From Prosopocoilus inquinatus (Eukaryota; Arthropoda; Insecta; Coleoptera; Lucanidae): a stretch of 64,000 nucleotides of DNA. The notes under the pieces were generated by a model. The model saw only the letters and a list, made by a program, of their open reading frames with translations. It ran no database searches and had not been told where the DNA came from. Position numbers and translations under genes: made by a program. The stretch covers positions 5,704,001 through 5,768,000 of the forward strand of contig CM069869.1 in assembly GCA_036172665.1 (NCBI GenBank), in the 5' to 3' direction. Shown piece after piece: positions 7,148 through 15,810 of this stretch (position 1 is its first letter; each line of letters begins with the position of its first letter).

Positions 7148-7475
7148 TGTGGCGAGCCAACCTGACTTAGCGCAAGGCGTCAGGAAGTCGGTCCGCTTCG
7201 GTGTGTCATCGGCCGTCACGCGGTCGGGCCCACATCGAACGGACTGGAATCTTCCCGAATAGAGACTTCCAGACGCCAGCAAATGATATAAAATGGCCCG
7301 GAGTTGACTCACCAGGCAGTGGAATTCGAACAGCGATCGGTCGAAGTTAGATTTTTAGTGTGTAAATAAATTGTTATAAATAAATTAGTTTTTAAGTTTT
7401 ATTAAATTACGGTTAAGTTTTTATCGAGTGTTTTATTCGTTTAAATAAATAAACTCAAACCCTAGAAACGTAACA
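7148..7475 (+). repeat. 5' LTR of the gypsy element
   Basis: The LTR begins TGTGGCGAGCC and ends CGTAACA. It contains a TATA box (TATAAAA, 7287-7293) about 140 bp in, followed by a CTCACCAGGC initiator-like region, and AT-rich polyadenylation-like AATAAA motifs near 7368-7384 and 7446-7454. It should supply promoter and 3' end formation for the element RNA. It differs from the 3' LTR only at offset 210. Confidence 0.97.
7287..7293 (+). promoter_or_regulatory. TATA box of the gypsy LTR
   Basis: TATAAAA lies within GATATAAAATGG, with GAGTTGACTCACC about 20 bases downstream as a likely start region. The same box recurs in the 3' LTR at 12356-12362, where it could drive transcription into flanking DNA. 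Confidence 0.65.
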
Positions 7476-7476
7476 G

Positions 7477-7494
7477 TGGTGTCAGGAGTGGGAT
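7477..7494 (+). other. Primer binding site, tRNA-Leu
   Basis: TGGTGTCAGGAGTGGGAT lies one base after the 5' LTR and is complementary over 18 nt to the 3' end of an animal tRNA-Leu of the CAG type (ATCCCACTCCTGACA plus CCA). It is where minus-strand DNA synthesis would be primed. The tRNA identity is from memory of the tRNA 3' sequence. Confidence 0.85.
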
Positions 7495-7557
7495 CGCTGT
7501 CAGAAATCCGGAGAAAGTCTTCAGGAATTCGAAGCAGACGTTGCGCGTCTGGCCCAG

Positions 7558-10521
7558 TTGGCATATCCCACAGCTCCTGTTGAATTCCTCAAATGTTTGA
7601 CGGTGCAGACCTTCATAGATGGAATCCGTGACCCAGACAACCAGCAGGCATTGAGAATGACCCATCCGAAGACGTCCAAGAACGCATTAGCTTATGCCTT
7701 GGAATTTGAAGCAGCGAGACGAGTCTCAAGAGGGCATGTCAAGGTGCGAGCGGCTATGGACTTCCAAGAGGAAGAAGAGGAAGAATCCGCTAACGCCAAG
7801 GTGGGATCTACTATAAAGGAGCGAGCCAGGGAGTATGCCACCGCCGAGGATGTTCGCCGCATTGTGGAACAGGTCTTCAAGCAGAAGAGGCCGCTGGTGT
7901 GGCCAGGAGGAAGGACATGTTCGCAGGCGATGTCCAAAGCCCAGACAGGATCCAAGGAAGCCACAGTTAAACTAAGCCGGGTCGGTGCAGAGGGGCAAAC
8001 GTCGACCCGTATTCAAAGGCCCCCAAAGACGAAAGCCAACCAAGTAATATTCCTACGGCAGTTAACCAGCAGTGTCTTCGTGGATGTCACCATTGATGAC
8101 ATTCCTCACACCATGTTGTTGGATACGGGTGCGACGAAGACCATCCTAAGACCCGACGTCATTAAGTCATCTGGACGCACCGAGCCGACCAAGTGGAGAC
8201 TGAAAACTGCAACTGGAACATCAGCAACTGTCCACGGTGAAGTAGAGGTTATCATCACCATTGGTTCAACTCCAATAAAACACCGTGCACTGGTGGCAGA
8301 TATAGAGGACGAGGCAATTTTGGGCATGGACGTCATGTGTGCCCACGGGTTCCAATTGGACTTAAAGCGTGGCGTAATGGCGGTCAATAATGAGGAGTTG
8401 GTTCTTCATCAACGAGGGGACGTGGCCGCTCGAGTAGTCCTCGCTGAAGACATTGTATTACCCAGCAGGACTGAGGTTATCGTCGACGCAAAACTGGACG
8501 GTGTTTTTCAAGATGGGCAAGTCATTATGGTTGAACCTAATACTGATGATCAAAGGATTGGAAGAGGAGTCCTCGTTGGGAAAATGTTGTTGACGGCGAA
8601 GAAGGAAGTACCTGTCCGCCTGATGAACGTCAATTGTTTCTCTGTCAATATCAAGAAAGGAACAATCTTGGGAAGCTGCACCATGGTGTCCTCCATCTCC
8701 CGGCAACTTGAAACAAACGTGCCAGAAGCGAAAGTCCCAAAGAAATTATGGGAAATGGTTATGTCAACAGCCCAGGAATTGACTCCAGACCAGAAGACAA
8801 AAGCAAAGAATCTGATCGGCCGCTATCAAGATGTATTTGAGGTAGAAAATGGATCCAAGGGAAGAACTGATGTCGTGAAACACAAAATAGAGACTGGAGA
8901 AGAAAGACCTATCCGTCAAGCTCCAAGGCGATTACCGTTGGCGAAGCGTGAGGAAGCGGAACGCATTATTCGCGAGATGGAAAAGGATAATGTAATAGAA
9001 CCATCAAGCAGCCCGTGGGCGTCACCAGTAGTACTTGTGAAGAAGAAGGATGGGTCCACCAGTTTCTGTGTAGACTACCGGTTACTCAATAATGTCACCA
9101 AGAAGGACAGCTATCCCCTGCTACGGATTGATAATACCCTGGACACCCTGGCCGGCTCAAAGATCTTCTCAACTTTGGACTTAAAGAGTGGATATTGGCA
9201 AGTGGAGCTGGCGCCCGAAGATCGAGAAAAGACGGCGTTTTCCATTGGTATGGGTCTGTGGCAGTTCACAGTGATGCCATTCAGATTATGTAATGCCCCA
9301 GCGACATTCGAGAGGTTAATGGAGACGGTTCTGAAAGGTCTGTCCTGGACAACGTGCATGGTGTACCTTGACGACATAATTGTCGTGGGAAAGACGTTCG
9401 ACGACCACCTAAGGAACCTGGAAGGAGTGTTCCAGCGGCTTCGCGGAGCTGGACTAGAGCTTAGCCTCAAGAAGTGTCACCTGTTCCAGAAGGAAGTGAA
9501 TTACCTGGGGCACATTGTTAATGGAAATGGAATCGCCGTGGACCCTGTGAAGATTCAGGTGGTGAAAGACTGGCCAATTCCCAGAAATAAACACCAAATA
9601 AGGAGTTTCCTTGGCCTGTGCACTTACTATCGGCGCTACGTTCCTGGATTTGCAGACATTGCTAAGCCGTTGACAAAACTCACTGAAGAAGGTCGTCCAT
9701 TTGAATGGGACCAACAGTGTCAAATTGGCTTTGAACAACTAAAGCAGTACTTGATTAGTGCTCCTATTCTGAGTTATCCTCTCCCGGAAGGAAAATTCGT
9801 CGTGGACACAGATGCTAGCAACGTTGGGATTGGTGGCGTACTCTCCCAGATACAAGAGGGGCAAGAGAAGGTGATCGGCTACTTCAGTAAAGTCCTATCA
9901 AAGCCGGAACGAAACTATTGCGTCACAAGAAGGGAATTGCTAGCCGTCGTAAAAACGATAGAACACTTCTACAAGTACTTGTATGGTAGACGCTTCCTGC
10001 TGAGGACCGACCACGCCGCTCTGAAATGGCTTCTCCGTTTCAAGAACCCAGAAGGACAAGTTGCACGATGGATCGAACGACTTCAGGAGTACGATTTTGA
10101 AATTCAGCATCGGGCAGGAACTAGCCATCGAAATGCCGATGCTTTGTCGAGAAGACCCTGTGCCGAAGACTGTAAGCACTGTAGTCGTTTGGACGAGAAA
10201 GTAGCCACGACTGCGAGGACAGCCATTGTTGACGACAAATGGCAAGCCGAAGAACTGCGAAGAGACCAGGAGAACGACCCGGATTTGAAATTAGTGCTAG
10301 AGTGGAAAAGCAGGGACGCGAGGCCTACCTGGGAAGAGGTAGCACCATGTGCACCGTCCGTAAAATCATACTGGGCGCAGTGGGACTCCATAGTGTTGGA
10401 TCGTGGTCTTCTGAGACGAAGCATAGAGAATCAGGAAGGCATGGAACAGAAGACACAGTTACTGATCCCCAAGAATAGGGTGCCAGAAGTTCTGAGGGAA
10501 CTTCACGATGGAACTTCGTGA
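7558..10521 (+). CDS. Gypsy gag remnant, protease, reverse transcriptase, RNase H
   Basis: The frame is open from 7474; 7558 is a TTG and the first in-frame ATG is at 7657, so no natural start is visible. Residues 1-115 are the C-terminal part of Gag. The aspartic protease has LLDTGAT at 187-193. The reverse transcriptase spans about 460-650, with VDYR at 505, YLDD at 603-606 and MPFRLCNAPATF at 573-584, where families usually have Gly rather than Arg. RNase H (about 745-865) keeps DTDAS, RREL, RTDHA and NADALSR. The integrase zinc-binding region begins near 983. The gag N-terminus is missing directly after the primer site. The in-frame TGA at 10519-10521 falls where the family has a small residue before the second zinc-binding His, separating RT from integrase. 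Confidence 0.92.
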   Translation: MAYPTAPVEFLKCLTVQTFIDGIRDPDNQQALRMTHPKTSKNALAYALEFEAARRVSRGHVKVRAAMDFQEEEEEESANAKVGSTIKERAREYATAEDVRRIVEQVFKQKRPLVWPGGRTCSQAMSKAQTGSKEATVKLSRVGAEGQTSTRIQRPPKTKANQVIFLRQLTSSVFVDVTIDDIPHTMLLDTGATKTILRPDVIKSSGRTEPTKWRLKTATGTSATVHGEVEVIITIGSTPIKHRALVADIEDEAILGMDVMCAHGFQLDLKRGVMAVNNEELVLHQRGDVAARVVLAEDIVLPSRTEVIVDAKLDGVFQDGQVIMVEPNTDDQRIGRGVLVGKMLLTAKKEVPVRLMNVNCFSVNIKKGTILGSCTMVSSISRQLETNVPEAKVPKKLWEMVMSTAQELTPDQKTKAKNLIGRYQDVFEVENGSKGRTDVVKHKIETGEERPIRQAPRRLPLAKREEAERIIREMEKDNVIEPSSSPWASPVVLVKKKDGSTSFCVDYRLLNNVTKKDSYPLLRIDNTLDTLAGSKIFSTLDLKSGYWQVELAPEDREKTAFSIGMGLWQFTVMPFRLCNAPATFERLMETVLKGLSWTTCMVYLDDIIVVGKTFDDHLRNLEGVFQRLRGAGLELSLKKCHLFQKEVNYLGHIVNGNGIAVDPVKIQVVKDWPIPRNKHQIRSFLGLCTYYRRYVPGFADIAKPLTKLTEEGRPFEWDQQCQIGFEQLKQYLISAPILSYPLPEGKFVVDTDASNVGIGGVLSQIQEGQEKVIGYFSKVLSKPERNYCVTRRELLAVVKTIEHFYKYLYGRRFLLRTDHAALKWLLRFKNPEGQVARWIERLQEYDFEIQHRAGTSHRNADALSRRPCAEDCKHCSRLDEKVATTARTAIVDDKWQAEELRRDQENDPDLKLVLEWKSRDARPTWEEVAPCAPSVKSYWAQWDSIVLDRGLLRRSIENQEGMEQKTQLLIPKNRVPEVLRELHDGTS
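7889..7975 (+). pseudogene. Gag zinc knuckle remnant in the +1 frame
   Basis: Reading +1 relative to pol, this stretch encodes RWCGQEEGHVRRRCPKP, matching the C-X2-C-X4-H-X4-C nucleocapsid zinc knuckle. The first Cys is replaced by Gly and there is one extra residue before the His. The frame ends at TAA 7973-7975. The upstream Gag region lies in the pol frame, so an indel near 7880-7890 must have shifted it. The arrangement suggests the family normally ends gag here and enters pol by a -1 frame change. Confidence 0.6.
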
Positions 10522-10545
10522 GGGCATCTGGGAGTTAAGAAGACT

Positions 10546-12234
10546 ATGGAGAAGGTGCGCGAAAGATTTTACTGGGTGAACTGCAAGGAAGACGTAAAGG
10601 ATTGGTGCAGAAAATGTGCAGTCTGCGCAGCAAGTAACGGCCCCCACAGGCGGGGTAAGGCTCCCATGAGACAGTACAACGTTGGAAGTCCTTTTGAGAG
10701 AGTTGCCATCGATGTAGCCGGACCGTTTCCAGAAACGAATGGTGGAAACAAGTACATCGTCGTGGTAATGGACTACTTTAGTAAGTGGGTTGAAGCTTAC
10801 GCCCTACCTAACCAAGAGGCGGTCACTATTGCGGAAGTCCTTGTCAGGGAATGGATCAGTCGGTATGGTGCACCTATGGAACTGCATTCAGACCAAGGAA
10901 GGAACTTTGAATCGGTCTTGTTCAAGAACGTGTGTACTCTGCTCGGCGTACGAAAAACTAGAACAACTGCACTCCACCCACAGTCGGACGGAATGGTGGA
11001 AAGGTTCAATAGAACCATCAACCGACATTTGTCCAAGGTCGTTTCCAATCATCAGAGGGACTGGGACACGTACATCCCCCTGTTTCTAATGGCATACCGC
11101 TCATCTGTTCATGAGACAACAGGGGAGACTCCCGCGAAAGTGGTATTCGGGCGAGAGCCGAGACTGCCCTGCGACCTGAAGTTTGGTGTGAAGCCTGGCG
11201 AAGTCTCTGCCGACGAAGATTACGTGAGCAAATTACGCAGGAAAATGGATGATATCCACAACCAAGTGCGTCACAGTATACAGACGGCCAGCGATCGGAT
11301 GAAGGAGCACTATGACATCAACGCTCAACACGGGGGATACCAACCTGGAGCACTGGTCTGGCTTTATAACCCCCAAAGACGTCGAGGCCTCTCCCCAAAA
11401 TTACAGATCTCTTGGGAAGGTCCTTACAAAGTGATGAAACGGATCAACGACGTCGTTTACCGCATCAAGAAGGTCCCCCATGGCAAACCCAAAGTAATCC
11501 ACTTCAACCGGATAGCCCCTTACCATGGAGAAGCAGATGAAGGGACAGTACAAAGGGCGCAAGTTTCCGAAGTGAACTTCGAAACCTTCATGTCTCATCA
11601 CGCCGAAGGAAGCAAGGCACGGTTTGGAGTGACCACGGAGAAGCAACAAGATCTCTTTAAAGTGCCACTGGAGTACAGTCTGGCCCACTGCGTAGCAGAA
11701 GACCTGAAAATGTCCAAAGGAATCGCTCAGGTGTTTAGGAAGAAATTTGGCCAAATCGAGGAGCTACGAAGACAGCATCCCGTGGTAGGCAAGAGCTTGC
11801 AGATCATTGATTCGACGGCAGATCGGAGGCGCCACGTGCATTATTTAGTCACTAAGAAGACATCAAGCGGTAAACCTGACTATGTGACTATGTGGAGAGC
11901 CCTATATAGCCTGAGGAGACAGCTAATAGAGAACCATCAGATGAAGTTAGCCATCCCCAAATTGGGCTGCGGATTGGACGGACTAGACTGGAGAGTAATC
12001 CGAAGCATGCTGGAAGTCATCTTCCACAGAACGGGAATTGAAGTCCTAGTCTGCAGCCACCACCCACAGGCAACAGTCAGCAACAGCAAAACCGTAGACT
12101 GTTACTTCTTCCAGACGGGAAGTTGCAAGAATGGGCCAGCATGTAGATTCCGACACCCTCCTTCAAGACTATCACCAGGAACATTTCGAGACGAAACGTT
12201 TCTAAGAGGGGGGCAGTGTGGCGAGCCAACCTGA
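10546..12234 (+). CDS. Gypsy integrase with C-terminal macro domain and CCCH zinc finger
   Basis: This is the in-frame continuation of pol after the TGA. Residues 1-30 hold the Cys pair of the integrase zinc finger (C24, C27). The catalytic triad is D56, D116 and E152, with the standard 35-residue D-E spacing. A GPY/F module lies at about 267-326 (WEGPYKV). Residues about 363-505 form a macro domain very like TARG1/OARD1: SLAHCVAEDLKMSKGIA, KKFG, YLVTKKTSSGKP and PKLGCGLDGLDW, keeping the Lys (437/438) and Asp (478) that in TARG1 form and resolve the lysyl-ADP-ribose intermediate. A CCCH finger follows: C519-X7-C527-X5-C533-X3-H537. The frame stops at TGA 12232-12234, inside the 3' LTR. A macro domain is not a standard gypsy component. 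Cleavage of ADP-ribose from proteins is inferred. Confidence 0.95.
   Translation: MEKVRERFYWVNCKEDVKDWCRKCAVCAASNGPHRRGKAPMRQYNVGSPFERVAIDVAGPFPETNGGNKYIVVVMDYFSKWVEAYALPNQEAVTIAEVLVREWISRYGAPMELHSDQGRNFESVLFKNVCTLLGVRKTRTTALHPQSDGMVERFNRTINRHLSKVVSNHQRDWDTYIPLFLMAYRSSVHETTGETPAKVVFGREPRLPCDLKFGVKPGEVSADEDYVSKLRRKMDDIHNQVRHSIQTASDRMKEHYDINAQHGGYQPGALVWLYNPQRRRGLSPKLQISWEGPYKVMKRINDVVYRIKKVPHGKPKVIHFNRIAPYHGEADEGTVQRAQVSEVNFETFMSHHAEGSKARFGVTTEKQQDLFKVPLEYSLAHCVAEDLKMSKGIAQVFRKKFGQIEELRRQHPVVGKSLQIIDSTADRRRHVHYLVTKKTSSGKPDYVTMWRALYSLRRQLIENHQMKLAIPKLGCGLDGLDWRVIRSMLEVIFHRTGIEVLVCSHHPQATVSNSKTVDCYFFQTGSCKNGPACRFRHPPSRLSPGTFRDETFLRGGQCGEPT
12203..12216 (+). other. Polypurine tract
   Basis: TAAGAGGGGGGCAG sits immediately upstream of the 3' LTR and is the expected plus-strand priming site. 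It is translated as part of the C-terminal end of the pol protein (RGGQ). Confidence 0.8.
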
Positions 12235-12544
12235 CTTAGCGCAAGGCGTCAGGAAGTCGGTCCGCTTCGGTGTGTCATCGGCCGTCACGCGGTCGGGCCC
12301 ACATCGAACGGACTGGAATCTTCCCGAATAGAGACTTCCAGACGCCAGCAAATGATATAAAATGGCCCGGAGTTGACTCACCAGGCAGTGGAATTCGAAC
12401 AGCGATCGGTCGAAGTTAGATTTTTACTGTGTAAATAAATTGTTATAAATAAATTAGTTTTTAAGTTTTATTAAATTACGGTTAAGTTTTTATCGAGTGT
12501 TTTATTCGTTTAAATAAATAAACTCAAACCCTAGAAACGTAACA
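12217..12544 (+). repeat. 3' LTR of the gypsy element
   Basis: This 328 bp copy is identical to the 5' LTR except for C at 12427 (G at 7358). It contains the pol stop codon at 12232-12234 and is followed by the GTAT target duplication at 12545-12548. Confidence 0.97.
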
Positions 12545-13069: not shown

Positions 13070-14849
13070 TAGCATCATAGAATGCGTCGCATATAGCCGT
13101 ACTTCGTACTAAGGTTGGAACGTGCTATAAGAATAGTCTCTTAAATATTTATTTAGATTTTGATAGACAGTGACGACACCAAAATTTAATGCTTGCGATC
13201 TATGTACATATTCCGTGAGAATAAGCGTGCTGAAATGTAAATAAAATTCTGCATAACGAAACAAATTAATAAAATAATGCTAACGTGACATCATTGTATC
13301 CGTCTTCTGATCATCAAATATTAACGCGTCTCTGAACTCGAATAATTTTGTTTTCGACAAGTTTCCTTTTTTACTGAAATTCGTTTTAAAATCAAATTTT
13401 AGATTTTTTGCTTTTGAGTTTTCCATGATAAATAAAAGAAAATTGGACTCCGCATTATGAAGAATTTTGTGTTATTAAAAAAATTAGACAAGCGATTTCG
13501 GAAAATATGCGAAAATAAGAAGAAAAAATTCTATCGATTAGAATAATAAAATTTCGATTTTTTAAATACAACTTATGTCTTAAGTTGTATTTAAAAAATC
13601 GAAACTGATGATGGTCGCGGAAAGACGAAACGTTTGACTTCAATTCTGTTACTCTTATTCGAAGCAGAATCAAAAAGTGCCTGTAGAAAGTTAAATCAGA
13701 ATTTCAAAGTTATGTATAATAAAAGAGATACAGGGAGAAAAAGAAAATTGATTTTTTTACATGTTTATTAATATCTCAAAAAGAAATCAGAAAAAAATGA
13801 TTCTGTTAATGAATACGAGTTAGGCATTGCTTCGTGCAACTTTTCTTCCATTTAACCGAATTTGTATCTCTTAGGCCTTAGGAGATCCCTTCAGTGCACA
13901 CTCAATTTGAAGCAGCCGGTATACTCAGATATTATCAAGTTATTAGAATACTTTGTAGCACTCTTGCATTAACAGTATCGTAAATAAATTACAAGTGATT
14001 GTAACTATAAGAACTAATTCTCTTTATTTTCTTCAGGTGAGGCACATTATACTTAATTTTTTACAGCATTTCTGTAATGAACCAAGCAGTGCTGTGCTAC
14101 ACGCCGGTTTACGTAACCAATAAGAACTTCCTTCGCAACGTCCACTCTCAAATCCTTTTTGTTATCCTTCAAGACGAAAACAACCATATCTATCTAACGT
14201 GCAGAATGAAATCTGCGATCACAAACCAGAATCGATGATAATAGTTTCCGTCCGTCCTTGATTTTTATTAACGATCTGTAATTAATAGTATTAAACGGAC
14301 GCGAGGATTTCGTTGTGAATTTCTTCTTCTGCCGTCCGTCGGCGAGTCGTCGTCATGCTCGATTTGCTGCTAATCTAATAAAGTGGAAACGGTCTCGGCA
14401 AACGCCGTCCGGTCATAATTTATTTAAATTTGCCCACGCTAAAGTCCGGCAGGTATTTTAAGAACGTGCTAAATAAATTGCAAACGACGATTTTAACCGG
14501 CGGGATAAAATCGCTTATGTAACAACGCGTTCGTCCGTCCGTCCGTCCGTATCGGAACACGATCGTGATAACGCGTTGGGCAAATATGAAGCGACGATCG
14601 ATATTTCAAAATAAGACCGAACGTGTGTGGAGGCGATTGATGATTACAAGTGCACTCGTTTTTCCGATAATGGAAAATAAATATCAGGTGGAACGTTTCG
14701 TTTTCACACTTTAGATAACATCATCTACTTCAAGAAGTTTTTCTGAGGGCGTTGGTGCATTTTTGAATTGATAATTTACATTACATTTATTAATGAAATG
14801 AATCGTTTGAATTGATGCTTAAGAGAATAATTTGTAATCAAAAAGTGCT
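13070..14849. other. No gene recognised; contains a perfect short palindrome and a TCCG repeat
   Basis: No coding region is credible here. A perfect 24 bp inverted repeat at 13552-13604 is listed separately. A (TCCG)n-like microsatellite lies at about 14528-14551. The rest is AT-rich DNA without recognisable element termini. Confidence 0.45.
13552..13604. repeat. Perfect 24 bp inverted repeat, 5 nt loop
   Basis: Arms at 13552-13575 and 13581-13604 are exact reverse complements around the loop TGTCT. The arm is AT-rich and reads TTTCGATTTTTTAAATACAA and onward. It could form a hairpin in DNA or RNA. No matching copy was noticed elsewhere in the window. Confidence 0.9.
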
Positions 14850-14875
14850 CCCTCAACATAGCCCTCTTTGATCAT

Positions 14876-15392
14876 TTGGTCAATGTAATTGATACAGATA
14901 TTTCGGATCATTATTTAGTATATTGTGAGTCTCTTTTTGAATCTATCAAATCCAATTTAAATTATTTCACTTATCGTGATTTCAAAAATCTAAATTATAC
15001 ACGGTTTTATGACGCCTTGCGCTCAATTCCTTGGGAAAACATATACGACATTGCGGATGTAGATGAAAAAGCTTCGTTCTTTACTGAAAATATTCAGTGT
15101 TTACAAGATCTATACTTACCATTAAAAACCGTTAAAATATCAAAGCGTTATTCACCCTGGTTTACTGATGTGATTAAGTCCATGATACAAATGCGTAAAA
15201 ATGCTTTAGCTAAATTTAAAGGCTCAAAGAGTACTGTAGATTGGACATATTATAAAATACTGCGTAACTCTACCACGAACGCAATTCGACGTGAAAAGAA
15301 AGCTTATATGGAACATATTTTGAAACAAAAATCGTGTCGTCAGGTCTGGAGTACTCTCAGAGAGTTAGGTATTTGCGCATCTCGTAACGTAA
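14876..15392 (+). pseudogene. LINE endonuclease end and linker
   Basis: The frame encodes the last motif of an apurinic-type endonuclease (ISDHYLVYC), followed by the Lys-rich linker common in LINE ORF2 proteins (YSPWFTDVIKSMIQMRKNAL and FKGSKSTVDWTYYKILRNS). The open frame runs on to 15454, but the part after 15392 belongs to the inserted Harbinger element. LINE sequence resumes after 16611 in a different frame with VPDSIGNVDDINNFF. The N-terminal endonuclease is absent, so this copy is 5' truncated. Confidence 0.8.
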
Positions 15393-15532
15393 AGGTACGT
15401 GTCCATTTGAGAGTAGCTCTCGAGAGTATATATCCCAAATGGACACATATCTGAGAGTAACTATCGGAAAGTGCCTGTCAACTATCGAGAGCTAGCTCGC
15501 TGAGACTTGCTCTCAAGTGGACATGCTATTAC

Positions 15533-15810
15533 TTGCTTGCTTGGATAGTAACTCGCAGAATACGAACGTGTTTCGAATTTTTGAAAGTACTGCTGAGAGT
15601 GCATGTAGAAATAGCGCCTAAAAAAGAGTGGTCAAAAGATGAAACAATAGAATTGATTAGTGTATCCGAAGAAAACTCTGTTTTATGGAATATCAAATGT
15701 AAAGAATACCAAAATCAGGAAAATAAAGATAAAGTATTGAAAGAAATATCAGCAAATTTAATCGTACTGCAGAGGAAATGCAACGAAAATTGCATAATTT
15801 AAGAAACCAG
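15533..15810 (+). pseudogene. Harbinger MADF/Myb-like accessory protein remnant
   Basis: Residues 31-88 of the frame starting at 15533 match a MADF domain: KKEWSKDETIELISVSEENS, then VLWNIKCKEYQNQENK and KVLKEISANL. Harbinger elements encode such a DNA-binding protein that helps transposase reach the termini. A one-base shift near 15765 moves the natural continuation (TAEEMQRKLHNLRNQ) to another frame. That continuation ends exactly at a GTAAGC splice-donor-like site at 15811, so the ancestral gene probably had an intron here. The first 30 residues overlap subterminal repeats and may not be coding. Confidence 0.75.

Follow-up and report, generated by a model that had tools for sequence, protein, structure and literature searches.

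The DNA examined here is a 64,000-nucleotide stretch of the genome of the beetle Prosopocoilus inquinatus (contig CM069869.1, positions 5,704,001 to 5,768,000), and "the window" denotes this entire stretch. Positions 7148-12544 of the window are occupied by a Ty3/gypsy element with two long terminal repeats (LTRs) of 328 bp each that differ at 1 of 328 positions and are flanked on both sides by GTAT (Table 1). This element is young. Its domain order according to Pfam, protease (PR), reverse transcriptase (RT), RNase H (RH) and integrase (IN), is that of Ty3/gypsy elements, and among solved structures its RT is closest to Ty3 RT (4ol8, E 5.3e-55). The window copy is defective because it lacks the 5' portion of gag and an in-frame stop (10519-10521) separates two open reading frames (ORFs). 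In copies elsewhere in the genome, the feature that concerns us here, a macro domain encoded in frame with the integrase, lies within one uninterrupted frame that can reach 1992 amino acids. This domain is followed by a CCCH zinc finger (PF00642, 28.0 and 26.5 bits, above the curated cut-off of 20.5). No CCHC knuckle was found in the window ORF, and a Pfam scan of the window ORFs at E up to 1 returned no chromodomain after the integrase.

Table 1. Features of the Ty3/gypsy element, in window coordinates
Feature	Position	Strand	Basis or remark
5' LTR (TG...CA, 328 bp)	7148..7475	+	GTAT directly outside = target-site duplication; 1 mismatch in 328 vs 3' LTR
Probable primer-binding site, directly 3' of 5' LTR	7476..7495, approximate	+	Inferred from sequence
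ORF, 1015 aa: C-terminal gag part, protease, reverse transcriptase, RNase H	7474..10521	+	Pfam Asp_protease_2, RVT_1, RT_RNaseH; gag inferred
In-frame stop ending the 1015-aa ORF	10519-10521	+	
ORF, 570 aa: integrase, macro domain, CCCH finger; final codons inside 3' LTR	10522..12234	+	
Integrase H2C2 zinc-binding domain (part)	10522..10638	+	PF17921
Integrase core (rve)	10690..10971	+	PF00665
Integrase C-terminal p58/GPY-F-like domain	11419..11520	+	PF22938
TARG1/OARD1-class macro domain	11617..12060	+	Sequence and structure comparison
Lys codon aligned with catalytic Lys of human TARG1	11854..11856	+	Invariant alignment column
Asp codon aligned with catalytic Asp of human TARG1	11977..11979	+	Invariant alignment column
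CCCH zinc finger	12088..12162	+	PF00642, 28.0 bits vs cut-off 20.5
Purine-rich tract 5' of 3' LTR, translated within LRRGQC/LRGGQC tail	12204..12216, approximate	+	
3' LTR	12217..12544	+	

An initial annotation, made from the letters of the sequence alone, had proposed that a TARG1/OARD1-like macro domain with an intact catalytic Lys/Asp pair lies in the integrase frame. Both parts of this proposal are confirmed. Its further idea, that the element may use the domain to remove ADP-ribose from integrase, chromatin or defence proteins, is a hypothesis. The segment matches residues 31-171 of the 194 residues of human TARG1 (OARD1/C6orf130) at E about 6e-29, so that homology spans the whole domain; the second-best match, 5m3i (a DarG macrodomain by title), is far weaker (E 7e-06). 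Structure prediction and structural alignment return the fold of the TARG1/OARD1 (ALC1-like) macrodomain, with about 33-37% identity to the human protein over model residues 29-178, which comprise the macro part and not the CCCH part. The Pfam profile Macro (PF01661) scores the window domain at 15.6 and 17.5 bits, below the cut-off of 22. Relatives from other gypsy families described below either reach this cut-off (L044, L047, L031), stay below it (L050, L039, L093) or give no match (L096). By sequence and predicted fold, we assign the segment to the TARG1 class of macro domains, as a part of Pol in the gypsy family of the window.

The two catalytic residues correspond to K84 and D125 in human TARG1 numbering. 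One review gives residue 125 as Glu125 (PMC7050489), whereas the aligned human TARG1 sequence has Asp at this position. Both columns are invariant in an alignment of 52 of 224 proteins plus the window domain, and all 36 rows counted in an enlarged macro tree retain the pair. This set leaves out shortened macro-like segments, P0152 (dropped already from the first tree) and P0132, P0100, P0098, P0110, P0112 and P0086 (dropped from later trees); P0086, removed before the counts were made, is the single row in which the catalytic Asp is changed to Asn. By eye, P0100 is a virus-like protein.

The macro domain is a family trait. A search of the P. inquinatus genome with this domain gave 1424 first-look candidates, the best 150 of which were scored and proved 98-100% identical to the window domain; genome copy numbers given here are counts of such candidates or best-scored rows. 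The domain is free of stops in 149 of these 150 copies, and more diverged copies also occur (97%, L042; 94%, L049). Evenly spaced matches on C9 (28344878, 28351049 and 28357220, 6171 apart) and on C5 (47386744, 47398226 and 47409708, 11482 bases apart) are probably tandem arrays of elements.

In the window family, the macro domain is under purifying selection. A search with 501 bases of integrase gave 986 first-look candidates, of which 40 were scored; 20 of the 39 copies other than the window were then picked without regard to the macro domain. All 20 have an open macro frame and keep the Lys and the Asp. Distinct changes in the domain amount to 18 synonymous and 20 nonsynonymous ones, compared to an expected nonsynonymous share of 78%, which corresponds to a ratio of nonsynonymous to synonymous rates (dN/dS, omega) of 0.32 (binomial p 5e-4, assuming independent changes). 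For the CCCH finger and tail of the same copies, omega is 0.56 and not significant (p 0.19). An earlier set of dN/dS values (macro 0.16, IN 0.21, CCCH/tail 0.45) was discarded in favor of this sample because similarity of the macro protein had been used to rank its copies, which biases the estimate.

The same arrangement is present in other species. Macro matches at E up to 0.001 were found in 104 of 259 candidate public proteins, and in 158 of 195 candidates among shorter ones. Integrase C-terminal sequence adjoins the macro domain in Aromia, Exocentrus, Harmonia, Pyrocoelia (motif only) and Leptinotarsa, and pieces of the same macro kind occur in Callosobruchus, Gonioctena, Holotrichia and Aquatica. 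In sequences with both ends intact, 38-46 residues separate the integrase motif from the macro match and 12-14 residues separate the latter from the CCCH finger; in broken gene models, the spacing falls outside these ranges or one part is absent. The fusion is thus found in many copies and in several species; neither of the two outcomes that would have spoken against the initial annotation, no significant match to macro domains or a single fused copy derived from a downstream host gene, was seen. The Leptinotarsa protein P0111, named ADP-ribose glycohydrolase OARD1-like, carries an integrase p58 C-terminal domain and, judged by this sequence, is a retroelement piece annotated as a host enzyme. 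Annotators should be aware that at least this one retroelement piece bears an OARD1-like name. P0228, filed under the powdery mildew Erysiphe pulchra, combines integrase and macro domain with a CCCH-like motif. In the macro tree it is placed with Harmonia axyridis, and it is probably beetle DNA in the Erysiphe pulchra assembly.

Further gypsy families with a macro domain were found by searching the P. inquinatus genome with a beetle host macro domain. Pfam and profile scans gave the layouts CCHC-PR-macro (L031), PR-macro (L044, L050), PR-macro-RT (L039), RH-H2C2-IN-p58-macro (L047, family e) and RH-macro (L093 and, by profile, L096). The matches to TARG1 reach E 5e-38 (L050), 1e-42 (L047) and 2e-29 (L096). 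Macro domain and RT share one frame in L064-L072, and the public protein P0227 reads RT-RH-macro-IN. An RT search supplied ten more gypsy copies, read in pieces, that represent about eight families by RT (L079/L080 and L081/L082 are near-identical pairs); in two of these families, a complete macro domain separates RH from IN (L074, L078). The domain therefore occupies three positions in Pol: between PR and RT, between RH and IN, and after IN. The fusion to integrase highlighted at first holds for the window family and family e, but is not essential, because other families carry the domain at PR/RT or RH/IN. In L094, L095 and P0227 (residues 907-1006), the integrase zinc-binding motif is immediately preceded by a shortened macro-like segment that lacks the N-terminal part; in P0227 this segment comes after a full macro domain.

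In an RT tree of 22 rows, the window element clusters with P0229 and family e (87/84), the PR-macro-RT families b, d and g cluster (100/100), as do families a, c and h (100/97), and the RH-IN types lie among families without a macro domain. This tree contains 7 changes among four position states, with two shortened segments scored as RH-IN. In the macro trees, the IN-macro-CCCH rows form a single clade (100/99) and the PR-macro-RT rows fall into two (99/97 and 97/92; 94/76 and 91/88 in the other tree); deep forks are weak, and 5 or 6 changes between cell and retroelement are needed. The trees do not include the shortened segments from L094 and L095 or the second segment from P0227, and host rows of the enlarged macro trees carry a few intron-derived residues at exon joins. 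The approximately unbiased test does not reject a single origin for the macro domains of all retroelements (p-AU 0.059, 0.159, 0.16 and 0.218), nor does it reject one clade of all PR-macro-RT rows (0.28 and 0.139) or of IN-macro-CCCH rows with family e (0.252). Hence, several captures and one capture followed by transfer between elements would both be compatible with the trees.

These data bear out the idea that a gypsy element took up a cellular TARG1-class domain. As to the donor, the first macro tree (17 element and 32 other rows, hand-picked from 224 proteins) placed the retroelement rows as one clade (98/99) nested inside beetle host genes. This nesting was lost once more retroelement families were added (p-AU 0.328 for retroelement rows and beetle genes as one clade), so the beetle's own TARG1-like gene is named only as a possible source. 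The macro domains of beetle TARG1-like genes (Tribolium LOC661444, P0090; C5:3752904 in P. inquinatus) are about 39-48% identical to that of the window, and by eye, these genes differ from the element in their long low-complexity stretches or repeated macro domains. The P. inquinatus gene has at least two macro domains (L041, C5:3748000-3757900), one of which is interrupted after ...GIAVNFR by a 57-nt stretch (L041 4865-4921) that, from the frame and its GT...AG ends, appears to be an intron. Element copies lack this stretch, which fits capture from processed RNA. Each macro domain of L041 has a frame break, probably an intron, at about the same place. Repeated macro domains also occur in Athalia LOC105684241 (P0225).

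How might a gypsy element use such a domain? Its mobile position in Pol, together with the kept catalytic pair, is best explained by an enzyme carried in the particle, and the domain is likely to be an active hydrolase used by the element. Extra hydrolases in Pro/Pol are familiar from retroviral dUTPases, the place of which varies by lineage and includes RH/IN; placement in Pol is similarly varied for the macro domain, although enzyme and substrate differ. Since the domain occurs in Pol at three different places, it would be packaged with RT and IN and would work inside the particle or the preintegration complex. There, it could strip ADP-ribose set by host transferases on element RNA, cDNA ends or proteins, so that RNA and cDNA ends could still serve in reverse transcription and integration; human TARG1 acts in vitro on ADP-ribose linked to Glu/Asp and to nucleic acid. 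RNA binding may be provided by the CCCH finger, a role suggested by the missing CCHC knuckle, and in the window family, the place beside integrase could favor an effect on cDNA ends. According to three papers, TARG1 removes ADP-ribose from Glu/Asp, from DNA and RNA end phosphates and from thymidine in single-stranded DNA (PMC7050489, PMC8501950, PMC8385414). Because reverse transcription yields single-stranded DNA and free ends, nucleic-acid ends are plausible substrates. That they are the main substrate is possible, though somewhat unlikely; particle or host proteins appear equally plausible.

Our observations suggest that erasing a host ADP-ribose mark helps these elements spread. That several lineages within a single genome keep a hydrolase-type domain, at three Pol places, suggests a need that arises repeatedly. 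The most far-reaching form of this proposal is that insect gypsy elements acquired TARG1 on several occasions, each time at another place in Pol, because hosts ADP-ribosylate retroelement RNA or cDNA ends as an undescribed defence, and that the domain is a general module for de-ADP-ribosylation of the particle, a counterpart of retroviral dUTPase. As a whole, this far-reaching form is doubtful. Several results also weigh against the more modest reading of the domain as an active hydrolase used by the element. Of the roughly eight families sampled by RT, four (six copies) yielded no macro match in the sequence examined; a stretch of about 0.7 kb around RNase H was unread in two of these copies, but was read in their near-identical partners. 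Two more families have only a shortened segment at the RH-IN position (L075, L076), and at least one shortened segment, that of L095, lacks the GCGLD motif by eye. These cases argue that part of the wider gypsy group can do without the domain or is losing it. The macro domain diverges faster than IN or RT: its identity is 58-63% in five pairs, for which the IN core gives 74-84%, and RT identity is 81% in the sole pair with a whole RT. In other families, dN/dS is 0.29-0.79 in six close copy pairs. Finally, DarT (PF14487), a candidate for the mark-setting transferase, had 0 matches in the P. inquinatus genome. Something in insect cells may thus place ADP-ribose on the nucleic acid or protein of retroelements, which would make a possible insect defence testable. 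It could also supply natural substrates for TARG1-type enzymes, the physiological function of which is still to be elucidated according to one review (PMC8385414).

Other functions have to be weighed against mark removal by a packaged enzyme. One that we entertain tentatively is that the domain counters a host defence based on protein ADP-ribosylation, as the macrodomains of coronaviruses and alphaviruses do, with host or particle proteins as substrate. A BFVD search does match macro folds in insect RNA viruses and Kadipiro virus, but we know of no such defence in beetles, and this explanation overlaps with ours to the extent that the substrate is the sole difference. It is unlikely that the domain is a reader whose binding to ADP-ribosylated chromatin, such as that at DNA breaks, would direct integration there, in the way that chromodomains guide chromoviruses. 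Chromodomains occupy the integrase C-terminus in other Ty3/gypsy elements, and the macro domain lies C-terminal to integrase in the window family and family e (L047); other families, however, have it away from this site, and the hydrolytic pair kept in every tree row is not obviously required for reading. Macro domains do include readers (PMC7050489). Quite unlikely is a role in handling a metabolite such as O-acetyl-ADP-ribose or free ADP-ribose, or in RNA binding only, without mark reversal on the element: the activity of TARG1 on O-acyl-ADP-ribose esters (same source) and the adjoining CCCH finger would fit, but carriage by several gypsy lineages suggests an element-linked benefit. A passenger host sequence beside one insertion, or a fused gene model such as the naming of P0111 might suggest, is extremely improbable, and the single-copy reading is ruled out by the shared frame between IN and 3' LTR, the many copies, the several species, the conserved spacing and the purifying selection.

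The domain shares fold, whole-domain sequence and catalytic residues with human TARG1, but resides in a retroelement polyprotein. Like chromoviruses, the window element has an extra domain after integrase, although not a chromodomain. Macro-domain ORFs in LTR retroelements are already known: some fish epsilon-like endogenous retroviruses include them (PMC4977317, citing Basta et al. 2009). As described there, the macro domains of these viruses are additional ORFs, in contrast to the in-frame TARG1-class Pol domain of the window element. What is new here is this in-frame domain in Ty3/gypsy and its unusual recurrence; none of the titles and opening abstract lines returned by the literature searches mentions a gypsy macro domain, and the claim is limited to those searches.

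In BFVD, macro folds resembling the window model were also seen in insect virga-like, negev-like and flavi-like virus proteins, in VP8 of Kadipiro virus and in an iridescent virus. Elsewhere in the window, positions 14831-15802 contain two ORFs of 207 and 113 amino acids, the longer of which looks like a piece of a non-LTR retrotransposon.
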